Origin: Lytechinus variegatus
Taxonomy: Eukaryota > Echinodermata > Echinoidea > Temnopleuroida > Toxopneustidae
Direction: 5' to 3'
DNA length: 64,000 nt
Assembly: GCF_018143015.1 (NCBI RefSeq)
Contig: NC_054748.1
Location: 18,990,725 to 19,054,724 of the forward strand
The position numbers were made by a program, and so were the translations under genes. Under the pieces are notes generated by a model, which did no database searches, was not told the origin of the DNA, and saw only the letters and a list, made by a program, of their open reading frames with translations. Numbering within the stretch: position 1 is the first letter of the stretch; each line of letters begins with the position of its first letter. This document shows positions 20,135-58,280 of the stretch, in pieces.

Positions 20135-20410
20135 CAGGGGCGGATCCAAGGGGAAGGGGCACAGCCCCTATTTTGGGGCAACCAACAGGAAAGGGTATAG
20201 AGAGAAATGCTTAAAAACAGAAAGAAAAGTAAAAAGGAGGTTACATACCCACGCCCTCGTAACGGCCGGCCAGACCCCAAGGCCTACTTGCAGTGGTACC
20301 CCATTTCCTTGGTTCACATGAAAGCAAACCACGCTACCGCACCTGATATGTTTTAGTTGATATTATACAAACACAACTTAATCATCACTAAAAAACGTTA
20401 TTTTTTAATA

Positions 20411-21278
20411 GTTTAGGAAATTAGGATTGTCAATTTCCTAATTATGTAAATGGAAAAAAGGAAAGATTGTGTCCTACCTTATATACGCCTACGATTTAAC
20501 TGATGGAAAGGATGGCAGAGCAGATAGATATCACCTCACTGACAGTTGCCGCTCAAGTATTGCACAAGTCCCAAATATATTTACAATTTACAAAAGTATA
20601 TGAAATGCAAAGTATAGAGGGTAGAAATCACAGTTGCAGAAGTATATAATTCGCGAAGTAGCAAGGCCTCACTAAATGCAGAGAACAGACTTCAAGAGAT
20701 GTGATTTAAGTAGAGGAAAGCAAAATAAATATGTAGAAGAGTAAATTGTAGGATCTCTGGTGGGCATGTGCTCCACAAAAGCAGGCTGACGTTGAGATGT
20801 TGTCAGAGCGAAGACAGAGAGTAGAGTGGTGATGTGGCAAAGTAGCAAGTTGGTTTTTGCCAGCATCACAAAAAGAGGGGGTATGAAAGACCACACCCAA
20901 AAGAGAGACTAAAACCAAGTTGAAAGGAGAAAGTGAGAGAGAGAGAGAAGAAAGAGCATCTGTGTAGTGATGCAGTATGAGTGCAGTGGGGAGCAAGGCC
21001 AGAACAATAAATCAGGTATATTAATGCCAGGTTGCCTTGCTCCAAGTCCATTATGTAAAAGTGAAAGGAAGATGTTTGTTTGTAAGATTTAGGCAGAAAA
21101 TATGCATGCAGTAGAAATGCACTGCATTTGACACAAACTGTAGAAGAGAAATTTACATGGAAATAAGACAGAGAATATAGGCTTATAAAATTATGTTGAC
21201 ATATGAATGAAAATATATACAGGAAAATAGTATGATATATACATGAAAATAGTATGAAGATATAGTCAAGTCACTACA
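20411..21278 (-). repeat. 3' LTR of the CsRn1-type element
   Basis: On the minus strand it begins TGTAGTGACTTGAC next to the polypurine tract and ends CCTAAAC. It is almost identical to 25599-26466. The two-base uncertainty at the ends comes from the short target duplication. Confidence 0.9.
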
Positions 21279-21406
21279 GTAGCTCCCCCCTAGATTTGTA
21301 CAGAATAAAAATGTAACAAATCGACAAGGGAAAGTAAAAGTGCACTTGGCTATATAAAAAGTAAAGTATGAAAACTGGAAACACAAGCAGTGTGTTGAGA
21401 AAATGT

Positions 21407-24400
21407 TCAACCATCCCCGAAATATTGAACGTATTTCGCAGGGAACCTGACATGGCGACCAGAACGAGTCCTACGAATGTCAGGAGTAATATGCTTGTCT
21501 TTAGGATCTACTGTCAAGTCTGTGGAGTTGGATTGTTCATGAACTTGAACATGCGGATCTTTACGGTGAAATGAAGGAGTGGTAGCTTCCTGCTCGATGA
21601 AAGCCGGTTTCAGTCTGTCGACACTGACATTTTCGTGTTTACCATTGTAGTCAATGGTAAAATACTTGTCAGTACGTCGGATGACTCGGAAGGGCCCTCG
21701 ATATGGGGGTTGCAGTGGCTTTGTAACTGCATCATCTCTTAGAAAGATGTGAGATGAGGAATGCAGTTCAGGATGTACCTGTATGGGTTTAGTTTGTTTG
21801 CGAGCAGGAGTGGGATGTAATTCCCGCATCATTCTCTTTAGTCTGTGGGCATAGTTAGATGGGTCATCGGCAGAATCAATTTGTGAAGGAGCTACAAATT
21901 GTGCAGGTAGAGTGACTGTAGTCCCAAACACAAGTTCTGCTGCAGAGCATCCAATGTCCGCCTTGATTGCTGTGCGTATACCCAGCAAGACTAAAGGGAG
22001 TGACTCAGTCCAACGGACCTTGTTATGAGCCTTGAGAGAGGCTTTAAGTTGGCGGTGAAAACGCTCCACTAAACCATTTGCGGCAGGATGGTATGCTGTT
22101 GTGCGGATGCGTTTAGTGCCAAGGAGGTTGGTGAGTGCAAGAAAAAGTGCCGACTCAAATTGCCTACCTCTGTCCGTTGTGATGGTAGTAGGTGCACCAA
22201 AAACCGCTACCCATCTGGCCACAAATGCCCGTGCTACCGTCTCCGCAGTGATGTCCGGGATAGGGATAGCTTCTGGCCACCTGGTGTAGCGATCAACGCA
22301 AGTTAGAAGGTAAGAGTTGCCTTCTGATGAAGGAAGCGGGCCAACGAGGTCAATATGCACATGGGAGAAGCGTGTATCTGGTGAAGTGAAAGTACCAAGT
22401 GGTGCTTTGGTGTGCCGATGTACTTTACACTTTTGACACTCGAGGCATGTTTTGGCCCATTTCCTGACATCAGCGTTGATGCTAGGCCAAACAAAGCGCT
22501 CTGTAATGAGCTTTTGAGTAGCTCTGATTCCTGGATGAGAAAGTCCATGAAGGGAATCAAAGATAGCTCTTCTATGTTTGGCTGGAACTACAGGCCTGGC
22601 AGTACCAGTTGAGACATCACATAGAATAGTAGTGAGGGAACCAGGAAGTGTTACCTGTTTGAGTTGGAGAGACGAGTCATGTACTTCAATTTCATCATCT
22701 TGGTCTTTTGCGATGGCCGCAAAGTCAATAATGGATGATGAATCCACTCGATCTATATACAGGCGAGAGAGAGCGTCAGCTGCAGTGTTATCCTTGCCTG
22801 AAATATGAAGAATGTTGGAAGTATATTGAGAAATAAAATCAAGTTGCCGGATTTCGCGTGGCGAGTGCCGATCCGGTTTGGATTTTAGAGCATGAGTGAG
22901 GGGCTTGTGGTCAGTGAAGATTGTGAATGTGCGACCTTCAAGAAGATGGCGGAAGTGCTTAACACCAAGATATGCTGCAAGCAACTCCCGACCAAAAGTG
23001 CTGTACTTCGTTTCGGCAGGCTGCAACCTCTTCGAGAAAAAGGCTAGCGGTTGCCAAACCCCATCAACCTGTTGTTGGATAGCTCCCCCGATGCCTACAT
23101 CAGAGGCATCCACTAATAGGCACAGTGGAACATCAGTGCGAGGGTGAACAAGAACAGTAGCGTCAGCCAATAACTCTTTAACGTGATTGAAAGCGAGAAG
23201 TTCTTTCTCTCCAAGATCAATTGGCATGTTCTTTTTTGTTCTGTTTTTCAACAGATCAGTGAGAGGTTGTAGCACCTCAGCACAATGTGGAACGAATCGC
23301 CTATAGAAATTGATCAACCCCAGGAATTCTCTAAGCTTGGTGAGCGATGTAGGAGGAGGAAAATCACGAATGATCTTCACTTTGTCGCCAAGTGGGCGAA
23401 TTCCTGTGTCGTCAACCATATGCCCAAGAAAAGACAGTGAAGATGCGCCAAACTGACATTTCGAAGGGTTGACAATGATGCCATACTCCTGTAGGCGATC
23501 GAAGAGCTGGCGGAGGTGTGTCTCATGTTCATCTATAGAAGAACTGGCTACCAGTATGTCATCTAGATAAACATAGACAAAAGGGAGACCACGAGTGACG
23601 GTGTCCATCAATCGCTGGAATGTCTGCGCTGCATTCCGAAGTCCAAATGGCATTCGAACGAATTCAAAGAGGCCAAATGGAGTGGTCACGGCGGTCTTGT
23701 GGATATCCCTAGGCTCGACTGGAATCTGATGATATGCCCTGACAAGATCAATTTTTGAAAAAATTGTCTTACCTGCAAGTGATGAGGAGAAATCTTGCAA
23801 GTGTGGGATAGGGTATCGATCAGGAATAGTGCGAGCATTTAGCATGCGATAATCACCACAAGGTCGCCAATCCCCGGGCGTTTTCTTGGGGACCATGTGC
23901 AATGGACTTGACCAGTTGCTATCAGATTGTCGGATAATGCCAAGTTCAAGCATGTGCTCAAACTCTGCCTGGGCAATTCTCTGACGATCTGGAGCAAGTC
24001 GACGAGGGCGCGCTGCCGCGGGCGGGCCTTGCGTCGGGATGTGGTGTGTGGTGGTATGTTTCACTTCCGAGTGCTTGTAAACCGGTCGTGTGATATCCGG
24101 ATACTTACGGAGAATGGAGTGAAACCGCTCCGATGAGTCATGTTGAACATACATCGGGCTAATAGTACCAGTATATGAACCACATCCCTGGACTGTAAGA
24201 GTGGTTGTGGTGTCTATCAATCGGCGGTGTTTGATATCCACCAACAGTCCAAACTGGTCAAGAAAATCGGCACCCAAAATCGGCGTGGGTATGTCTGTCA
24301 CAACAAATATCCAGCGGAAAACACGCCGTAAACCGAGATCAAGTGTGAAAGACTTTTGTCCGAAAGTCTTGATTGGCGATCGATTCACAGCCTGTAACTG

Positions 24401-24622
24401 AATATTTGTCGCGTCAACCCTAGCCGGTTTCCCAAACTTTGAATGAGGGAAAATGCTCACCTCAGCACCTGTGTCAACGAGAAAACGTGTACCAGTGTAC
24501 TTGTCGTTGACAAAGAAAAGGCGACTGGGTTGGGTGCTGCCAAGGGGATTTGTCGCCGCTATTCCTTGGCGGGACCGTTTCCCTGGGCGTGTCCTGCTGA
24601 GAAAGAGCAAGGACTTATGCAC
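21407..24622 (-). CDS. pol: Pol polyprotein of the CsRn1-type element
   Basis: It is a 1071-residue open frame. The domains run in standard Ty3/gypsy order. The aspartic protease has DTGAEVS at about residue 50. Reverse transcriptase spans about 200-400 with YLDD at 352-355. RNase H spans about 495-620, with acidic residues near 505, 546 and 571. Integrase follows with an HHCC zinc region at 692-729 and a DDE core at about 758, 817 and 853, then a GPF-like C-terminal module. The frame overlaps the end of gag by about 60 bases in another frame, consistent with the ribosomal frameshifting that many gypsy elements use. It looks whole. Such proteins copy the element RNA into DNA and integrate it in the nucleus. 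Confidence 0.93.
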
Positions 24623-25458
24623 TTTTGGGCACTACTCCCATGCTTCCAGTGATACCAGCACTGGGCACCTGCATGCTGTTCACTGCGATTCGGGCTGCGC
24701 GAAACTGACCGAGGGCGTTTATTTGAGTCTTTTGACTTGCGCTGCCGACTGCGACCTCTCCCGCGGTTATCTAGCAAGGAGCAGGTTAATGCTTGGACCT
24801 GCATCGTAAGCTGGGCAACCTGTGCAGAGAGCTGGTCGACTTTAGTTTCCTGCGCAGGGAGTGGAGGAGGTTGTGACGGCGCCAACTTAGACTGAATGTT
24901 AGATATGCTGGTTGGGCCTGCAACTTCGACAATTTTGTCCGCAAGCGCCGCCAAGTCCACCAAACTCACCCCATCGCTTGATGCGGCTAGGATGACCTGC
25001 ACGTTGGTGGGCAAGCGTTGCAAAAATAATTGCCGAAATATGGAATCCTCCATTGTGCTCGTCCCCATTAATTGCTGCATCCGCCGGAGGAGTTGCGATG
25101 GCGACTTGTCTCCGAGCTCCTCTCCTGACAGCAACCGATTGAGGCGCGTCTGCTCGGAGACGGTCGTTCGCTTGACCAATGCAGCTTTTAATTTCTGATA
25201 TGGGTTATCGGCCGGGATAGCTGTAATGATGTCCCTCACCTCCATAACTACCTCCTGTTGTAGTGAGGCAACTACATAATTGAATTTGGTAATTTCGGCG
25301 GTAATACCCTTCGTGTGAAATTGGGCCTCCACCTGAACAAACCAAATTTCTGTGTCGTTTGCCCAGAATGGTGGAAGCTTAATGCTCACCGGAGCAATAG
25401 AGGGTGATACTGGAGAAAGAATAGATTCAGGAGTAGAGGTAACATTAGGGGTAGTCAT
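24559..25458 (-). CDS. gag: Gag protein of the CsRn1-type element
   Basis: It is a 299-residue open frame whose ATG lies about 120 bases inside the 5' LTR. Residues 25-130 carry the [19 protein letters not shown] region typical of short gypsy gags. A helical middle follows, then a Gln-rich stretch and an Arg/Ser-rich basic stretch. The zinc motif is near the C-terminus, with CHCC spacing (C-x2-H-x9-C-x3-C). Gag packages element RNA into cytoplasmic particles. It looks whole. Confidence 0.88.
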
Positions 25459-25580
25459 GTTGTAGAGTTAAGAAAAAAAAATGAGAAGTAGAAACGAAAT
25501 AAAAATAGTGAAATGAGAAACAAGAATAGAGAAGTGAGAGAAATGAATAGAAGGCGATAAAAGAAAATTAAGGATTCAGG

Positions 25581-25598
25581 ATCACGTCGGGGTCACCA
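25581..25598 (-). promoter_or_regulatory. Primer-binding site, tRNA-Trp type
   Basis: Read on the minus strand directly after the 5' LTR, it is TGGTGACCCCGACGTGAT. This is complementary to the 3' end of metazoan tRNA-Trp as I recall it, and is the same 18-mer used by Rous sarcoma virus. Confidence 0.85.
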
Positions 25599-26466
25599 GT
25601 TTAGGAAATTAGGATTGTCAATTTCCTAATTATGTAAATGGAAAAAAGGAAAGATTGTGTCCTACCTTATATACGCCTACGATTTAACTGATGGAAAGGA
25701 TGGCAGAGCAGATAGATATCACCTCACTGACAGTTGCCGCTCAAGTATTGCACAAGTCCCAAATATATTTACAATTTACAAAAGTATATGAAATGCAAAG
25801 TATAGAGGGTAGAAATCACAGTTGCAGAAGTATATAATTCGCGAAGTAGCAAGGCCTCACTAAATGCAGAGAACAGACTTCAAGAGATGTGATTTAAGTA
25901 GAGGAAAGCAAAATAAATCTGTAGAAGAGTAAATTGTAGGATCTCTGGTGGGCATGTGCTCCACAAAAGCAGGCTGACGTTGAGATGTTGTCAGAGCGAA
26001 GACAGAGAGTAGAGTGGTGATGTGGCAAAGTAGCAAGTTGGTTTTTGCCAGCATCACAAAAAGAGGGGGTATGAAAGACCACACCCAAAAGAGAGACTAA
26101 AACCAAGTTGAAAGGAGAAAGTGAGAGAGAGAGAGAAGAAAGAGCATCTGTGTAGTGATGCAGTATGAGTGCAGTGGGGAGCAAGGCCAGAACAATAAAT
26201 CAGGTATATTAATGCCAGGTTGCCTTGCTCCAAGTCCATTATGTAAAAGTGAAAGGAAGATGTTTGTTTGTAAGATTTAGGCAGAAAATATGCATGCAGT
26301 AGAAATGCACTGCATTTGACACAAACTGTAGAAGAGAAATTTACATGGAAATAAGACAGAGAATATAGGCTTATAAAATTATGTTGACATATGAATGAAA
26401 ATATATACAGGAAAATAGTATGATATATACATGAAAATAGTATGAAGATATAGTCAAGTCACTACA
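25599..26466 (-). repeat. 5' LTR of the CsRn1-type element
   Basis: The promoter-bearing LTR. On the minus strand a TATATAAG box lies at about 25666-25673, some 70 bases before the LTR end, so U3 is long and R-U5 short. It is nearly identical to the 3' LTR. Confidence 0.9.
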
Positions 26467-26734
26467 ATAGAATTAGTGACAATATTGGATTTATTGCATT
26501 AGAATATTTCATTGGTTGACAGCAGCTGCACAGTGCATGAATGTAAAGAAGAAGACTTGTTAAGTCACGCCTGCTCTACCATATCTACATTGTTCCTTGG
26601 GGAGGGTTCTCAGCTAGATCCTCCGACAGGACGTATCCCCCCCCCATTTAAAATCCCTGGGATCCGCCCCTGTTAATTCCATCTTGAAGACGAAAAGTCA
26701 AATCAGGATTTTCAGCCTTGTCGCCTCCAATCAA

Positions 26735-49822: not shown

Positions 49823-50064
49823 GCCTCACCTGCGAAGCAGAGTGAGACTATAGGCGCCGCTTTTCCGACGGCGGCGGCGGCGGCGTCAACACCAAATCTT
49901 AACCTAAAGTTTTTGAAATGACAGCATAACTTAGGAAGTATATGGACCTAGTTCATGAAACTTGGCCATAAGGTTAATCAAGTGTTACTGAACATCCTGC
50001 CGGAGTTTTGTGTCACATGACAAAGGTCATTTAGGGTCAATCAACTTAGACCATGTTGGGAGAA

Positions 50065-50507: not shown

Positions 50508-50815
50508 TGGGAGAATCAACATCAAAATCTTAACCTGAGGTTATGTTTTTGAATTGTCATCATAACTTAAAAATATATGGACCTAGTTTATGAAACTTAA
50601 AAAAGGTTAATCAAGTATTGCTAAACATCCTGCCTGAGTTTTGAGTAACATGACCGAGGCCATTTAGGGTCAATGAACTTTGGCCGAATTGGGGGTATTT
50701 GTTGAATTACAATCATAACTTTAAAAGTTTATGGATCTGATTCATGAAATTTGGACCTAAGAGTAATCAAGTACCACTTCACATCCTGTGCGAATTTCAA
50801 GTCACATGATCAAGG

Positions 50816-51712
50816 TGTTACATATAAGAATAATTTAGAAGAATTGTAAAAGCAATTACATCCATCTATTAGTTATTTCCCTTTAAGGCTAGCCAAGAAT
50901 TGTAAAGAACATTCAAGAATGTCTTTTTATTATGCAGGCCTTGCCTATTTAAAGGCCAAGGAGTTGTATTGTTATTTCTGAATAGAGATTAGGAACAATA
51001 GGCTTAGCTATGTTATTGACACTCTTGATTTCAATGAGGTCATTCAAGAGTGTTCTGGATTTTGACTGCTCCTGAAAGGAGAAAGTTCTTTTGGAAGAAG
51101 GTGCTAGAACCTTCTATGGTGGTGACATTTTTTAGAAGCTTCTAGATTAGTTGAAACTTAGTATAAATAGCTGCAGTTTCTTTAATCACATCATATTAGA
51201 TCACACCATCACATCATATGAGAGCAGGAGATCACATCACGTCATATGAGATCACTTCACCAGATTAGATCAGATCAGAGCAGTTTATGCATCAATGAAC
51301 TGTTTGCAGTTATTTTTGAGAGAGAAATTATCAGTTCTCATCGAGATCATCAACATCATCAACCTGTTCAATGAACACGCTTCAACCCATGGATTGCTGA
51401 AATTGACTGTTAATCATCATCAACATCGTCTTCACGGACATTTCAACTCGTTGCAGTGACTCTTATTATTCATCGGACTTCAACATCAGTTTCATCATCG
51501 CCATCATTGTGAATTTTCGCCAGTCAACTGGGATTTTATCATTTGGATTATTACTTGGATATAGTATCATCACTTCGGGATTTTACATCGGACACTTCAA
51601 GAGATTTATGTAAGATCATTATTTGTTTTATTTATGTATAATTATTTCCTGTAATAAAAAAAAGGAAATTTAAATAAAATTTTTACTTGTTATTTGTTGC
51701 AGTATCGTAACA
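50816..51712 (+). repeat. 5' LTR of the Gmr1-like element
   Basis: Begins TGTTACATATAAG and ends CAGTATCGTAACA. A TATAAATA box lies at 51162-51169 and an AATAAA signal at about 51653. Between them is a region dense in ATCACATCA and TCATCAACATC words. Confidence 0.92.
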
Positions 51713-51720
51713 AATAATTT

Positions 51721-51738
51721 TGGGGGCTTGTCCGGGAA
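51721..51738 (+). promoter_or_regulatory. Primer-binding site, tRNA-Pro type
   Basis: TGGGGGCTTGTCCGGGAA begins eight bases after the LTR end. It matches the tRNA-Pro primer site of murine leukaemia virus, as I recall it, at 16 of 18 positions. Confidence 0.75.
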
Positions 51739-51950
51739 ACGAAAATCAAATTTGTACAAGCCAAGGCAATTTGAAACGAAAACCAAATTTAAAGCCAATT
51801 TGAAATTAAAACCAGTTTTTCAGGAAACGAAAGCCAATTTGAGACGAAAGTCAATTTGAAACAAAAGCCAATTTGAATTGGAAACATTTTGGAAAGTTCT
51901 AGAATATACTGTACTGTGTTATTACGTGCTTGTATTTGTGTATATTCACT

Positions 51951-54900
51951 ATGGCTACATTTGATGTTGAAGAATTTCTTGCAAAGACAGAATTGTCATA
52001 TGATCATTTGAAGTCACTGAAGAAAGATGATTTGATAACAGTTTGTGATCATTTTGGTGTATCTCTAGCCCCAGGATTAAAGAAGGCAGAGATAATTGAC
52101 TTGTTAGCTAGTCACATGAAGCTTACAGAGGAGTCTGAAATTTCTGTTACTGTTTCAGATGATGCTCAGATTCAACTTGCAAAGTTTGAAATGGAAATGA
52201 AAATGAAAGAGAATGTCGAGAAGGAAAGAATCAGAGAAAACATTGAAATGGAGAAAATGAGATTGGAGTACCAGTTAAAGTTGAAAGAAATGGAGTTAGC
52301 TCATGCAAATACTAACTTTGTTAAAGATAAATCTCCCCAAGGCTTTGATGTGGCGAAAAACATTCGCCTTGTGCCAAAATTTGATGAAGAGGGAGTTGAT
52401 ACATATTTTGTGTCATTTGAAAAAGTGGCCAAGAGACTGAATTGGCCCGAGGAATACTGGACTCTTCTCCTCCAAAGTGTTTTTGTTGGTAAGGCTGCAA
52501 AAGTCTATTCTTCGCTCTCTGAAATGCAATCATGTGACTATGCTACAGTAAAAGAAACAATTCTCAATGCATATGAGTTAGTACCAGAAGCGTACAGACA
52601 TAAATTTAGGAACATGCAAAGACAATCAGGCCAGACGTATGTTGAATTTGCTAGGGAACAAGAAATGATGTTCGATAAGTGGTACAGATCACTGAAAGTT
52701 GACAAAGATTTTGTTCACCTTAGGGAAGTTGTCCTCCTAGAAGCATTCAAAAAGAGTCTTCCTTTTGGCATTAAATCTCACTTAGATGACCATAGAGTTA
52801 CTGAAGTCAGTAAAGCAGCCATAGTAGCTGATGAATTTGAGGTCACACATAAAGGTAGTGGAGATAGGCCTCCTTTCAAGAATTATTGGAAAAAGAAAGG
52901 TAAAGGGTCATTTGAATCCCACAATAAACCTAGTGAGGGAAAATATGCAAGCAAGGACAAAGACGCTAATAAGAATCAGGCTAGTGCGGGCACAGAATCA
53001 ACCAAAAGGTCTGAGAGTCGTAGTTCCAAAATTTGTACTCATTGTCATAAATCGGGACATTTGAAAAAATCATGTTGGAAATTGGTTGGAATGCCAACCA
53101 AAACTAAGAAAGACATGGGTTTTGTCAAGCAAACAAGTGTTCCCTCGATGGAGTTTGTTCCATCAGAGCCCAATCAAGATGTTGAGAGTGTTTCTCTGGT
53201 ATTTGCTGATAAAGTCAAGCAGGTTGATGAAACTTTTAGAAGTTTTTTGCATGATGGTGAAGTATCCCCTTGTTCGACTGGTGCTGCTGGTAGGTCAGTG
53301 GTGATCCTTAGGGATACAGGGGCTGCACAGTCCCTGATGGTGCCAGGTGATTCGGCTCTTCCTCCGGAGAGTTCAGAGAATGCCAACGTCTTAGTTCAAG
53401 GTATTGGCCCAAATTTCATGTCGGTTCCTTTGCATAAGGTCGACTTAAAGTGTGACCTAGTTAGTGGTCCTGTGACTGTTGGTGTCGTTCCAGAATTACC
53501 CATGAAAGGTGTTGATTTCTTGTTAGGTAACGACTTGGCTGGAGATAAAGTTGTTGCATCTCCAGTGGTTTCGGAAAAGCCCGTTGAGGTAGCTGAAACT
53601 GAATTGTTGCAGGAAGATTTTCCAGGGATTTTCCCGGATTGTGTTGTTACTAGGTCTCAGACTCGTAGAGCTGAAAAGGATGATGCGGAATCTGCTGATG
53701 TAGAGGAGAGTACTGATGTCTGGTTAGCTGAAACCTTTTTCAAGGATTTGAATGGGGATAGTGTTGAAGGCTCTGTTGCTAACAATGGTAGTTTGTTTAG
53801 TAAATCCTCCCTTGTACAGGCACAACAGGCAGACCCAGAATTAAAAAGCTTGTCACAGAAAGCATGTTCTGAGGCTGAGGCTGATAAGGTTCCTGAGTGC
53901 TTTTATGTCAAAGATGACATTTTGATGAGGAAGTGGAGACCTCCCCGGAGACCAGCTGATGAAGATTGGTGTATAATTCACCAGGTTGTAGTTCCTCCTT
54001 GTTACCGCACAGATATTCTGAAAATGGCTCATGAGTTACCTATGGCAGGTCATGTCGGTATTCGGAAGACAGAAGATAGAATTATGAGGCATTTCTATTG
54101 GCCTAAGATGCACAAAGATGTTGTGCATTTCTGTAAGACATGTCACACATGTCAGATTATTGGTAAGGCACAGCCTTCTATCAAGCCTGCTCCATTAATA
54201 CCCATTCCTGCATTTGATGAACCTTTTACTAGGGTTCTTGTTGATTGTGTCGGACCCTTACCCAGAACTAGGTCGGGTCACAGATTTCTCCTGACGATTA
54301 TGGACTTGTCTACACGGTTTCCAGAGGCGATACCTTTGAGAAGTATCACTGCAAAGACAGTGGTGCAGGCGTTAGTGCAGTTTTTCACTAGGTACGGTCT
54401 GCCGAAGGAGATTCAATCTGATCAAGGGTCAAATTTCATGTCAGGAATATTTCAGCAAGTTATGAAGGAGTTGGGAATAAAGCAGATTAAGTCTTCTGCT
54501 TATCACCCACAGTCCCAAGGAGCGTTAGAACGCTATCATCAGACTTTGAAGACCATGATTAGGGCTTATTGTGAAGACTATCCTGATGACTGGGATAAAG
54601 GGATCTCATTCCTACTGTTTGCAACTAGGGATTCCCCGAATGAGTCCACAGGTTTCAGTCCATTTGAATTGGTCTATGGTCATGAGGTTAGGGGTCCTCT
54701 AAAGCTTATCAAAGAGAGGTTTATGGTTCAGGATGATGATGTAAACCTTCTAGACTATGTGTCAAAGTTTAGAGAAAGGCTCTCAAAAGCTTGTGATGTG
54801 GCTAAGGAACACTTGAAAGAGTCGCAGGGAAAAATGAAAGCTCAAGCTGACAAAAATGCAAAAGAGCGAAGTTTCAAGCCTGGAGACAAAGTATTAGTGT

Positions 54901-56615
54901 TGTTGCCTTTGCAAGGTGAGCCCTTGAAAGCTAGGTTTAGTGGTCCCTACATAGTCAAAAAGAAATTGAATGATGTCAACTATGTGATCAGTACCCCTGA
55001 TCGAAGAAAGTCTCAAAGAGTTTGTCATGTAAACATGTTAAAAGAATACTTTGAGCGAGAGGCTAGTCAGCCAATAGGTACAACACAGGTCAAAGAAGAA
55101 GAAAAACATGTAAATGTAAATGAAGAAGAATGTTATGGAAAGACAGATAATGAATTGTCTTATACAGATGTATCCAAGAACGAACCATGTGGTGTAAAGT
55201 TGTCTAACTCAGAGATGTTAGGAAACATGGATGAGGCATTAAAACACCTGCCTGAAGATCAAAGAAATGATATATCTGGCCTGTTAAGAGAATATGAGAA
55301 TGTATGTAAAGACAAACCAGGTCGTACACCTTTAACTGTACATGATGTAGACGTAGGTGATGTAAGACCTATCAAACAGAATCCTTATAGGCTCAATCCA
55401 AGCAAGTTGGAAATGGTGAATAATGAAATACAGTTTATGTTAGATAATGACATAATCGAACCGAGTCAGAGTAGTTGGAGTTCCCCCATTGTAATGGTTC
55501 CAAAGCCAGACGGCTCTCAGAGATTTTGCATTGATTACCGAAAGGTAAATGCAGTAACTAAGACTGACTCGTATCCAATTCCTAGGTTAGAAGATTGTAT
55601 TGATAGGGTTGGAAATTCTGCCTATATCACAAAGATAGACTTGCTTAAAGGATATTGGCAAGTGCCACTGACTGACCGAGCCAAAGAGATATCAGCCTTT
55701 GTCACACCTGAAGGCTTATTTCAATGCAAAGTCATGCCTTTTGGAATGAAAAATGCACCAGCAACCTTCCAAAGGTTGACAAATCAAGTGATTGCCGGAC
55801 TTGACAATTGTGTCGTATACATAGACGACATCCTAGTATACAGTGATACTTGGAATGATCATCTGAATCATTTGCGAGCACTGTTTGACAGGCTGGACAA
55901 AGCCAATCTAGTAGTGAATCTGATGAAGAGTGAATTTGCCAAGGCAAAAGTCACATATCTTGGTCATGTGGTTGGTCAAGGGCAAGTGCTACCAAGAGAA
56001 GCCAAGATACAAGCTATCTTAGACTTCCCAATTCCCACAACTAAGAAAGAATTGCTCAGATTCTTAGGTATGAGTGGCTTCTACAGGAAATTTGTTCCAA
56101 ATTTCAGTACAGTGGTTAGTCCTCTGACAAACCTGCTGAAGGCAAAAGTGAAGTATGTTTGGTCTGACGAATGTCAAAGATCATTTGAGAAATTAAAGGC
56201 CATTTTGGTGAATGAGCCTATTTTGGCAGCTCCAAACTTCACAAAGCCATTCAAAGTAGCAATTGATGCATGTGATGTTGGAGTAGGAGCAGTATTGCTC
56301 CAAGAAGATGAAAAAGGCATCGAAAAACCAGTGTGCTACTTCTCTAAGAAACTCAATCGGTTTCAAAAGAAATACTCAACTATTGAAAAAGAGGCCCTGA
56401 GTCTCGTACTAGCCCTTCAGCAGTTTGAGGTGTATCTAACCAATGGAGAGATTACAGTCTATACAGATCACAATCCTCTTGTGTTTTTGGAGAAATTCAA
56501 AACAAAGAATCAAAGACTGTATAGATGGAGCCTAATGCTCCAACCATTTCCTTTGAAAATTGTACACATAAAGGGAAAGAATAATGTAATTGCTGATGCT
56601 CTATCAAGAGTATAA
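51951..56615 (+). CDS. gag-pol: Gag-Pol polyprotein of the Gmr1-like element
   Basis: It is 1554 residues from the ATG at 51951; an in-frame ATG at 51930 is less likely. Residues 1-45 resemble a SAP-type helix-turn-helix fold (SYDHLKSLKKDDLITVCDHF), followed by a Met/Glu/Lys-rich coiled coil. A gag core follows. A CCHC zinc knuckle (C-x2-C-x4-H-x4-C) is at about residue 361 and a protease DTGA motif at about 455. Integrase has an HHCC region at about 694-730 and a DDE core at about 765-860, then a GPY-like module. After a Glu-rich linker comes reverse transcriptase with YIDD at about 1290, then RNase H ending in IADALSRV. Gag and pol share one frame, so stoichiometry must be set in another way than frameshifting. 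It looks whole. Confidence 0.93.
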   Translation: MATFDVEEFLAKTELSYDHLKSLKKDDLITVCDHFGVSLAPGLKKAEIIDLLASHMKLTEESEISVTVSDDAQIQLAKFEMEMKMKENVEKERIRENIEMEKMRLEYQLKLKEMELAHANTNFVKDKSPQGFDVAKNIRLVPKFDEEGVDTYFVSFEKVAKRLNWPEEYWTLLLQSVFVGKAAKVYSSLSEMQSCDYATVKETILNAYELVPEAYRHKFRNMQRQSGQTYVEFAREQEMMFDKWYRSLKVDKDFVHLREVVLLEAFKKSLPFGIKSHLDDHRVTEVSKAAIVADEFEVTHKGSGDRPPFKNYWKKKGKGSFESHNKPSEGKYASKDKDANKNQASAGTESTKRSESRSSKICTHCHKSGHLKKSCWKLVGMPTKTKKDMGFVKQTSVPSMEFVPSEPNQDVESVSLVFADKVKQVDETFRSFLHDGEVSPCSTGAAGRSVVILRDTGAAQSLMVPGDSALPPESSENANVLVQGIGPNFMSVPLHKVDLKCDLVSGPVTVGVVPELPMKGVDFLLGNDLAGDKVVASPVVSEKPVEVAETELLQEDFPGIFPDCVVTRSQTRRAEKDDAESADVEESTDVWLAETFFKDLNGDSVEGSVANNGSLFSKSSLVQAQQADPELKSLSQKACSEAEADKVPECFYVKDDILMRKWRPPRRPADEDWCIIHQVVVPPCYRTDILKMAHELPMAGHVGIRKTEDRIMRHFYWPKMHKDVVHFCKTCHTCQIIGKAQPSIKPAPLIPIPAFDEPFTRVLVDCVGPLPRTRSGHRFLLTIMDLSTRFPEAIPLRSITAKTVVQALVQFFTRYGLPKEIQSDQGSNFMSGIFQQVMKELGIKQIKSSAYHPQSQGALERYHQTLKTMIRAYCEDYPDDWDKGISFLLFATRDSPNESTGFSPFELVYGHEVRGPLKLIKERFMVQDDDVNLLDYVSKFRERLSKACDVAKEHLKESQGKMKAQADKNAKERSFKPGDKVLVLLPLQGEPLKARFSGPYIVKKKLNDVNYVISTPDRRKSQRVCHVNMLKEYFEREASQPIGTTQVKEEEKHVNVNEEECYGKTDNELSYTDVSKNEPCGVKLSNSEMLGNMDEALKHLPEDQRNDISGLLREYENVCKDKPGRTPLTVHDVDVGDVRPIKQNPYRLNPSKLEMVNNEIQFMLDNDIIEPSQSSWSSPIVMVPKPDGSQRFCIDYRKVNAVTKTDSYPIPRLEDCIDRVGNSAYITKIDLLKGYWQVPLTDRAKEISAFVTPEGLFQCKVMPFGMKNAPATFQRLTNQVIAGLDNCVVYIDDILVYSDTWNDHLNHLRALFDRLDKANLVVNLMKSEFAKAKVTYLGHVVGQGQVLPREAKIQAILDFPIPTTKKELLRFLGMSGFYRKFVPNFSTVVSPLTNLLKAKVKYVWSDECQRSFEKLKAILVNEPILAAPNFTKPFKVAIDACDVGVGAVLLQEDEKGIEKPVCYFSKKLNRFQKKYSTIEKEALSLVLALQQFEVYLTNGEITVYTDHNPLVFLEKFKTKNQRLYRWSLMLQPFPLKIVHIKGKNNVIADALSRV

Positions 56616-56814
56616 AAAGTGAAATTATTCATGATTTTGACCAAGTGTGTCATTTGAAGAAAACATCTTTGATGTTCATTTATTTTAACATGTTCGTTAA
56701 GTACTATATCTTTGTACACGATAACTGTAAATGATTTATCAAGATGACTTTGAACAGTTAAAAGAAAAAGTAATCTTAAAGAAACCTTTACTACGGTAAA
56801 GCTTTCTTTTCCCT

Positions 56815-56825
56815 GGTGGGGGAGG
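56815..56825 (+). promoter_or_regulatory. Polypurine tract of the Gmr1-like element
   Basis: GGTGGGGGAGG directly precedes the 3' LTR start TGTTAC, where plus-strand priming is expected. Confidence 0.8.
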
Positions 56826-57723
56826 TGTTACATATAAGAATAATTTAGAAGAATTGTAAAAGCAATTACATCCATCTATTAGTTATTTCCCTTTAAGGCT
56901 AGCCAAGAATTGTAAAGAACATTCAAGAATGTCTTTTTATTATGCAGGCCTTGCCTATTTAAAGGCCAAGGAGTTGTATTGTTATTTCTGAATAGAGATT
57001 AGGAACAATAGGCTTAGCTATGTTATTGACACTCTTGATTTCAATGAGGTCATTCAAGAGTGTTCTGGATTTTGACTGCTCCTGAAAGGAGAAAGTTCTT
57101 TTGGAAGAAGGTGCTAGAACCTTCTATGGTGGTGACATTTTTTAGAAGCTTCTAGATTAGTTGAAACTTAGTATAAATAGCTGCAGTTTCTTTAATCACA
57201 TCATATTAGATCACACCATCACATCATATGAGAGCAGGAGATCACATCACGTCATATGAGATCACTTCACCAGATTAGATCAGATCAGAGCAGTTTATGC
57301 ATCAATGAACTGTTTGCAGTTATTTTTGAGAGAGAAATTATCAGTTCTCATCGAGATCATCAACATCATCAACCTGTTCAATGAACACGCTTCAACCCAT
57401 GGATTGCTGAAATTGACTGTTAATCATCATCAACATCGTCTTCACGGACATTTCAACTCGTTACAGTGACTTTTATTATTCATCGGACTTCAACATCAGT
57501 TTCATCATCGCCATCATTGTGAATTTTCGCCAGTCAACTGGGATTTTATCATTTGGATTATTACTTGGATATAGTATCATCACTTCGGGATTTTACATCG
57601 GACATTTCAAGAGATTTATGTAAGATCATTATTTGTTTTATTTATGTATAATTATTTCCTGTAATAAAAAAAAAGGAAATTTAAATAAAATTTTTACTTG
57701 TTATTTGTTGCAGTATCGTAACA
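56826..57723 (+). repeat. 3' LTR of the Gmr1-like element
   Basis: Nearly identical to 50816-51712, with the TATA box at 57172-57179. It is followed by AAGG, the target duplication. Confidence 0.92.
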
Positions 57724-58280
57724 AAGGTCAAAGGTTCAACTTTTGCCAAATTGGAGGTATTTGTTGGATTACCATCATAACTTTGAATGTTTATTGGTCT
57801 AGTTCAAAAAACTTGGACAAAAGAGTAATCAAGTATCACTGAACATCATGTGCGAGTTTCAGGTCACATGATTAAGGTCAAAGGTCATGTAACTAACGGT
57901 CAATGAACTTTGGCCAAGTTTTTTTGGGGGGGTATTTGATGAATTATCAACACAACTTTGAAAGATTACGGATAGGATTCATGAAACTTGGTCATAAGGG
58001 TAACCAAGTATCACTGAACATCTTGTGCGAGTTTCAGGTCACATGACCTTTCAAAGTTTATAGATATGGTGTATTAAATGTTGATATAGGGGTAATCAAG
58101 TATCACTGACAAGTTTTAGGTCACATGATCAAGGTCAAATGTCAGTAAACGTTGTATTGTATCATACATGAATGGTGTATTTTGTGAATAATTATTTTAT
58201 AGTAGTTTTCAAAGTCAGCACTGCTACTATACTGAATCGCGTGATGCACGGGTGAGACTTCCAGAGGCATTCCACTTGTT

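Follow-up and report, generated by a model that had tools for sequence, protein, structure and literature searches.

The founding description of the Gmr1 elements, from Gadus morhua, is said to be that of Goodwin and Poulter in 2002. According to passages of PMC6238403, PMC8220671 and PMC3587641, Gmr1 elements belong to gypsy and carry integrase upstream of reverse transcriptase (RT), and a passage of PMC4592553 states that the SCAN domain resembles Gmr1-like gag. Here we describe an element of this kind from a 64,000-nucleotide window (the whole stretch of DNA analysed, to which coordinates without a contig prefix refer) of Lytechinus variegatus NC_054748.1. Window 50816–57723 is a complete, intact-looking long terminal repeat (LTR) retrotransposon of 6.9 kb, with paired LTRs, a primer site, a purine tract and a target duplication, which its sequence leads us to read, with a probability of about 95%, as a recently inserted, apparently autonomous Ty3/gypsy LTR retrotransposon of the Gmr1 clade in an echinoderm genome. 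It is most likely a new family of an already known clade, and its integrase-first order is real but has been described before.

As far as can be told from a comparison by description only, the window element is a family distinct from G. morhua Gmr1. According to PMC11117352, the tetraodontiform (pufferfish) elements Gmr1–Gmr4 likewise have one Gag-Pol frame (1506–1634 amino acids (aa), against 1554 in the window) and young copies, but their LTRs are shorter (337–518 bp, against 897 bp), as are the elements (6.1–6.5 kb, against 6.9 kb). The preliminary description of this DNA, made from the letters alone, had attributed Gmr1-like elements to deuterostomes; they are indeed reported there, but no longer only there, since passages of PMC3587641 and PMC8220671 report them from crustaceans and from an annelid respectively. 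According to a passage of PMC8556966, a later annelid survey failed to recover the Gmr1 clade reported for that annelid. Our literature search on Gmr1 in sea urchins and echinoderms found, among the papers listed, none titled on that subject, which is no claim that none exists.

Domain order and enzyme type

Comparison of four pieces of the gag-pol frame with Pfam gave the order SCAN-type gag, CCHC knuckle, protease, integrase, RT and RNase H, so that integrase lies upstream of RT within one pol, with coordinates, motifs and Pfam order in agreement (Table 1). The SCAN match exceeded the curated Pfam cut-off (PF02023, 1.2e-10). Gag-pol is contained in the longest stop-free frame of the window in all six frames (1570 codons), the runner-up (1074 codons) belonging to a second element. 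All the motifs listed in the preliminary description (CCHC, DTGA, HHCC/DDE with a GPY-like end, YIDD and RNase H) could be placed in that order within one long frame, and to these we add the SCAN domain, the primer site and the copy number.

Ty1/copia elements are marked by a copia-type RT (RVT_2) and a pre-integrase domain. In the frame pieces, neither RVT_2 nor any other copia profile was found at E up to 0.1, and the best sequence match in the PDB was Ty3 for both the RT–RNase H piece (6.5e-91) and the integrase piece (1.8e-40). Judged by these matches, RT and integrase are of Ty3/gypsy type, which bears out the earlier proposal of a gypsy-type RT in a copia-like order. In yeast Ty3, which provides the closest solved RT and integrase, integrase follows RT, judging by their positions in chain 7q5b, unlike in the window element. 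The second element of the window (20410–26470, minus strand) likewise has a gypsy RT, 40% identical to that of the window element, and young LTRs (99.8% identical over 873 bp), but follows the usual arrangement, with protease, RT and RNase H followed by integrase, and has a gag with DUF7041, which we take to be CsRn1-like. A search of the host genome with the copia RT profile gave no match, and control genomes were equally silent, so that this result does not show absence.

Copies in the genome and recent activity

We searched the genome (G000; 869,567,369 bases in 33 contigs) and obtained at least 43 matches to the LTR piece (40 of 1552 first-look candidates scored), many in pairs ~6.0–6.2 kb apart. 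The order integrase, linker, RT recurred in all 11 LTR-paired copies fetched elsewhere, from six contigs; two of these inner stretches were frame-shifted and four had RNase H inside the stretch. The SCAN profile yielded at least 150 matches, all over the cut-off (150 of 441 candidates scored), with frames of 1400 aa or more in 69 of the 150. Integrase lay downstream with no RT before it at 30/30 loci cut from the top of the SCAN list, and the order integrase, RT, RNase H was found at 20/20 loci fetched further downstream, which were picked from the 150 mostly for long frames and comprise 12 of the window's family and 8 of families only 40–45% identical in integrase and RT. Of three loci fetched via RNase H alone, L090 has the canonical order RT, RNase H, integrase; L091/L092, nearly identical to L067, is integrase-first; and in L093, fetched on the downstream side, the frame ends after RNase H. 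At 18 Retrotrans_gag control loci, RT was present within the 1.5-kb flank in 7 and integrase in none. At G000 C5:43103035–43104282 (minus strand), an RT copy sits in a reported open frame of 2911 aa, against the usual ~1570, and the 1.1 kb upstream resembles the ordinary element.

Pairwise comparison of the window element's LTRs (897 and 898 bp) shows 3 substitutions and 1 indel, in keeping with the young LTRs and near-pristine state first noted for this well-preserved copy. Over the first 775 LTR bases, the window pair shows 2 substitutions and three other pairs none (with 0, 8 and 12 gap columns), and 4-bp target duplications flank three of the four pairs examined (AAGG, TTGT, ATAC), the right end of the fourth not being found. 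Of 1827 candidate RT matches, 100 were scored; every one of these shows 99–100% protein identity, and for 67 the open frame spans at least 1400 aa. The pooled ratio of nonsynonymous to synonymous differences (pN/pS) was 0.054 for integrase (10 sequences: the window and 9 of 11 copies, a frameshift and a length change having excluded one copy each) and 0.042 for RT (6 sequences: the window and 5 copies; in the stretches fetched from the others, RT was incomplete or frame-shifted). Values this low, near 0.05, show strong constraint and, with the abundance of full frames, speak for recent activity. The coiled-coil start of gag (window 51951–52328; L027–L036, L040, L050, L051) varies in length and sequence, being mostly 74–97% identical between copies; the capsid and integrase pieces of the same copies are mostly 94–100% identical.

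Two 3.2-kb derivatives were also found, one (G000 C18:2067966–2071896) without gag through most of integrase but keeping RT–RNase H and the other (G000 C14:22177463–22181476) keeping gag and RNase H. An origin from spliced RNA, which would hint at a spliced Gag message, was considered and rejected: both junctions fall in short sequences common to both ends, and we therefore favour template switching as their probable origin.

Relatives, trees and alternative readings

Outside the genome, 30 candidate stretches on prokaryote genome contigs included two elements, on NJBF01000089.1 (L094) and NJBF01000101.1 (L095), that are integrase-first like the window element and 59–60% identical to it in integrase and 62–63% in RT. 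The former has a SCAN gag (7.6e-12); the latter begins after the capsid, outside the SCAN region. These contigs, filed under a Heimdallarchaeota metagenome-assembled genome, are probably misbinned eukaryote DNA contaminating an Asgard genome. Viral contigs held no relatives among 5 candidate stretches for the integrase-to-RNase-H piece or among 3 for the RT alignment.

Trees were built from 11 rows, one chosen per family with near-copies and three partial rows left out, and are limited by long outgroup branches. The window element groups with L094/L095 (RT, 100/99; integrase, 82/90), and the RT tree places the other integrase-first families (L053, L059, L062, L067, L091) in a group of their own (97/99). 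A single integrase-first clade is not rejected by the integrase tree, with a P value of the approximately unbiased test (p-AU) of 0.13 (0.547 without Ty3), and earlier trees without the NJBF contigs did not hold the integrase-first rows together (p-AU 0.405, 0.548, 0.151). As far as these alignments go, a single integrase-first clade is neither demonstrated nor rejected.

We assign the window element to Gmr1 because a SCAN gag with an integrase-first order is the Gmr1 description in print: according to the passages cited above, Gmr1-like elements, like it, combine an RT and an integrase of gypsy type, placed in the order integrase–RT, with a SCAN-type gag. The assignment made in the preliminary description thus gains support from SCAN, an independent Gmr1 hallmark. 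Several points weigh against this reading. The protease profile RVP scored below its cut-off (0.072), and the protease piece gave no useful match in the PDB; the gag piece matched a SCAN protein there (zinc finger protein 24) at E 0.53, which is not significant alone. The tree comparison proposed in the preliminary description covers unnamed relatives and Ty3, with no named Gmr1 (nor copia) sequence among the rows; the collections searched yielded no named Gmr1 sequence. The RT tree joins the two integrase-first groups weakly (67/88; 66% of 200 bootstrap trees; 63/53 without Ty3), whereas in the integrase tree the canonical row e2 falls, also weakly, among the integrase-first rows (69/90), which are together in only 2% of 200 bootstrap trees (29% without Ty3).

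It is on these trees that a separate gypsy lineage, having reached the integrase-first order independently and not being true Gmr1, would have to rest: in them the integrase-first families are not firmly joined, and both the window group with L094/L095 and the group of L053, L059, L062, L067 and L091 are starred in the RT tree. Nonetheless, one clade was rejected in no tree and both groups carry the SCAN gag that a passage of PMC4592553 ties to Gmr1, making such a lineage very improbable. Slightly less improbable, though still unlikely, is that the order arose more than once within SCAN-gag gypsy elements, or reverted in certain relatives, in which case the window lineage and that of L053/L059/L062/L067 would not make up one clade by order.

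Readings that deny the order or the nature of the element fare worse. A join of two elements in the assembly, named beforehand as one finding that would undo the preliminary description, found no support, nor did a nested insertion, although tandem LTR arrays do occur in this genome: at G000 C4:44985715–44998648, three LTRs of the window element's family follow one another at intervals of ~6.07 kb and enclose two internal regions, as in a tandem with a shared LTR. The window integrase and RT sit in one stop-free frame, and independent copies, both LTR-paired (11/11) and SCAN-selected (20/20, with families only 40–45% identical), share the order, which rules out a join and leaves it practically no credence. 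Integrase before RT is the copia order, and would be expected if the element belonged to Ty1/copia or were a chimera of copia and gypsy in which the integrase came from copia; membership of Ty1/copia was rejected, however, by the Ty3 matches of RT and integrase and the lack of copia profiles, and the domains found are gypsy/retroviral (RVT_1, Integrase_H2C2, p58_C with GPY), so that we consider either version hardly credible. Domestication of a Gmr1 element as a host gene might account for the intact long frame and strong constraint, but not for complete paired LTRs, a target duplication and 100 scored RT copies that are all 99–100% identical; copy number and LTRs refute it, and it too is exceedingly improbable.

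Sequence features, primer site and significance

The features of the Gmr1-type element are collected in Table 1. Its surroundings (window 49887–50060, 50603–50816 and 57738–58109) form a cluster of diverged repeats of ~60–140 bp, and scanning the window for Rfam families and tRNAs gave no matches.

Table 1. Features of the integrase-first element, in window coordinates.
Feature	Position	Strand	Basis
Target-site duplication AAGG, left	50812..50815		Flank comparison
5' LTR, 897 bp, TG...CA	50816..51712	+	Repeat comparison
TATA-box-like TATAAATA, inside 5' LTR	51162..51169	+	Consensus match only
Two AATAAA polyadenylation-like signals (51653, 51673)	51653..51678	+	Consensus match only
Primer binding site TGGGGGCTTGTCCGGGA, 8 bases past 5' LTR	51721..51737	+	17/17 complementary to host tRNA-Pro 3' end, CCA counted
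gag-pol, single frame, ATG start, 1554 codons plus stop	51951..56615	+	Open reading frame
SCAN domain (capsid C-terminal part of gag)	52584..52853	+	Pfam PF02023, E 1.2e-10
CCHC zinc knuckle	53034..53075	+	Motif
DTGA protease active-site motif	53313..53324	+	Motif; RVP profile weak, 0.072
Integrase zinc-binding H2C2 domain	53991..54158	+	Pfam PF17921, 1.5e-20
HHCC motif	54030–54152	+	Motif
Integrase core (rve)	54222..54509	+	Pfam, 2.2e-13
D-D35-E motif (codons starting 54243, 54420, 54528)	54243–54530	+	Motif
Integrase C-terminal domain (Integrase_p58_C), GPY motif at 54942–54950	54942..55043	+	Pfam PF22938, 1.5e-11
Reverse transcriptase, YIDD at 55818–55829	55497..55970	+	Pfam PF00078 (RVT_1), 1.1e-36
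RNase H (RT_RNaseH)	56235..56549	+	Pfam PF17917, 1.1e-34
Polypurine-tract-like GGTGGGGGAGG, abutting 3' LTR	56815..56825	+	Sequence
3' LTR, 898 bp, TG...CA	56826..57723	+	Repeat comparison
Target-site duplication AAGG, right	57724..57727		Flank comparison

A T-arm pattern allowing two versions of tRNA-Pro had 32 matches in the genome and its reversed control none, and all 32 were the version that pairs 17/17 with the primer site once CCA is added. The three places fetched were all tRNA-Pro genes (anticodons TGG, CGG and AGG); some of the 32, antisense and near other retroelements, are probably primer sites, not genes. Antisense tRNA-Pro 3' halves were seen at G000 C4:47263697, C12:10301988 and C13:24423531, 4–5 kb before RNase H matches of other families, which suggests that those families use an unusually long tRNA-Pro primer match.

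In the replication cycle that these features predict, the LTR would drive a transcript encoding one polyprotein, to be cut by its own protease; the SCAN-type capsid would form the particle, tRNA-Pro would prime reverse transcription, and integration would occur with a 4-bp stagger. The integrase-first arrangement probably alters only the order inside the polyprotein, because the enzymes are expected to work once separated by cleavage. Its most likely origin is a single event in this lineage, in which template switching shuffled the domains.

In support of an echinoderm host, contig C33 (15,693 bases) carries COX1, of which 540 bases were read against mammalian COX1. AAA aligns with Asn in three of four cases (positions 85, 86, 122; the fourth with Gly), AGA with Ser in two of three (21, 88; the third with Ala) and TGA with Trp in 5/5, a codon use that, in this alignment, fits the echinoderm mitochondrial code, which flatworms share. 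A molluscan host, suggested at first by the style of the sequence, was rejected on this ground.

For specialists the element is an ordinary one, and the accepted picture is unchanged. What it offers is an echinoderm Gmr1-type family that is very clean, abundant and recently active: many of its frames are intact, it has left natural deletion derivatives, and several divergent sister families share its genome. This makes it well suited to studying how a single Gag-Pol frame that runs without a break, with integrase placed before RT, is processed, and to tracing the gag lineage presumed to be the source of vertebrate SCAN domains.

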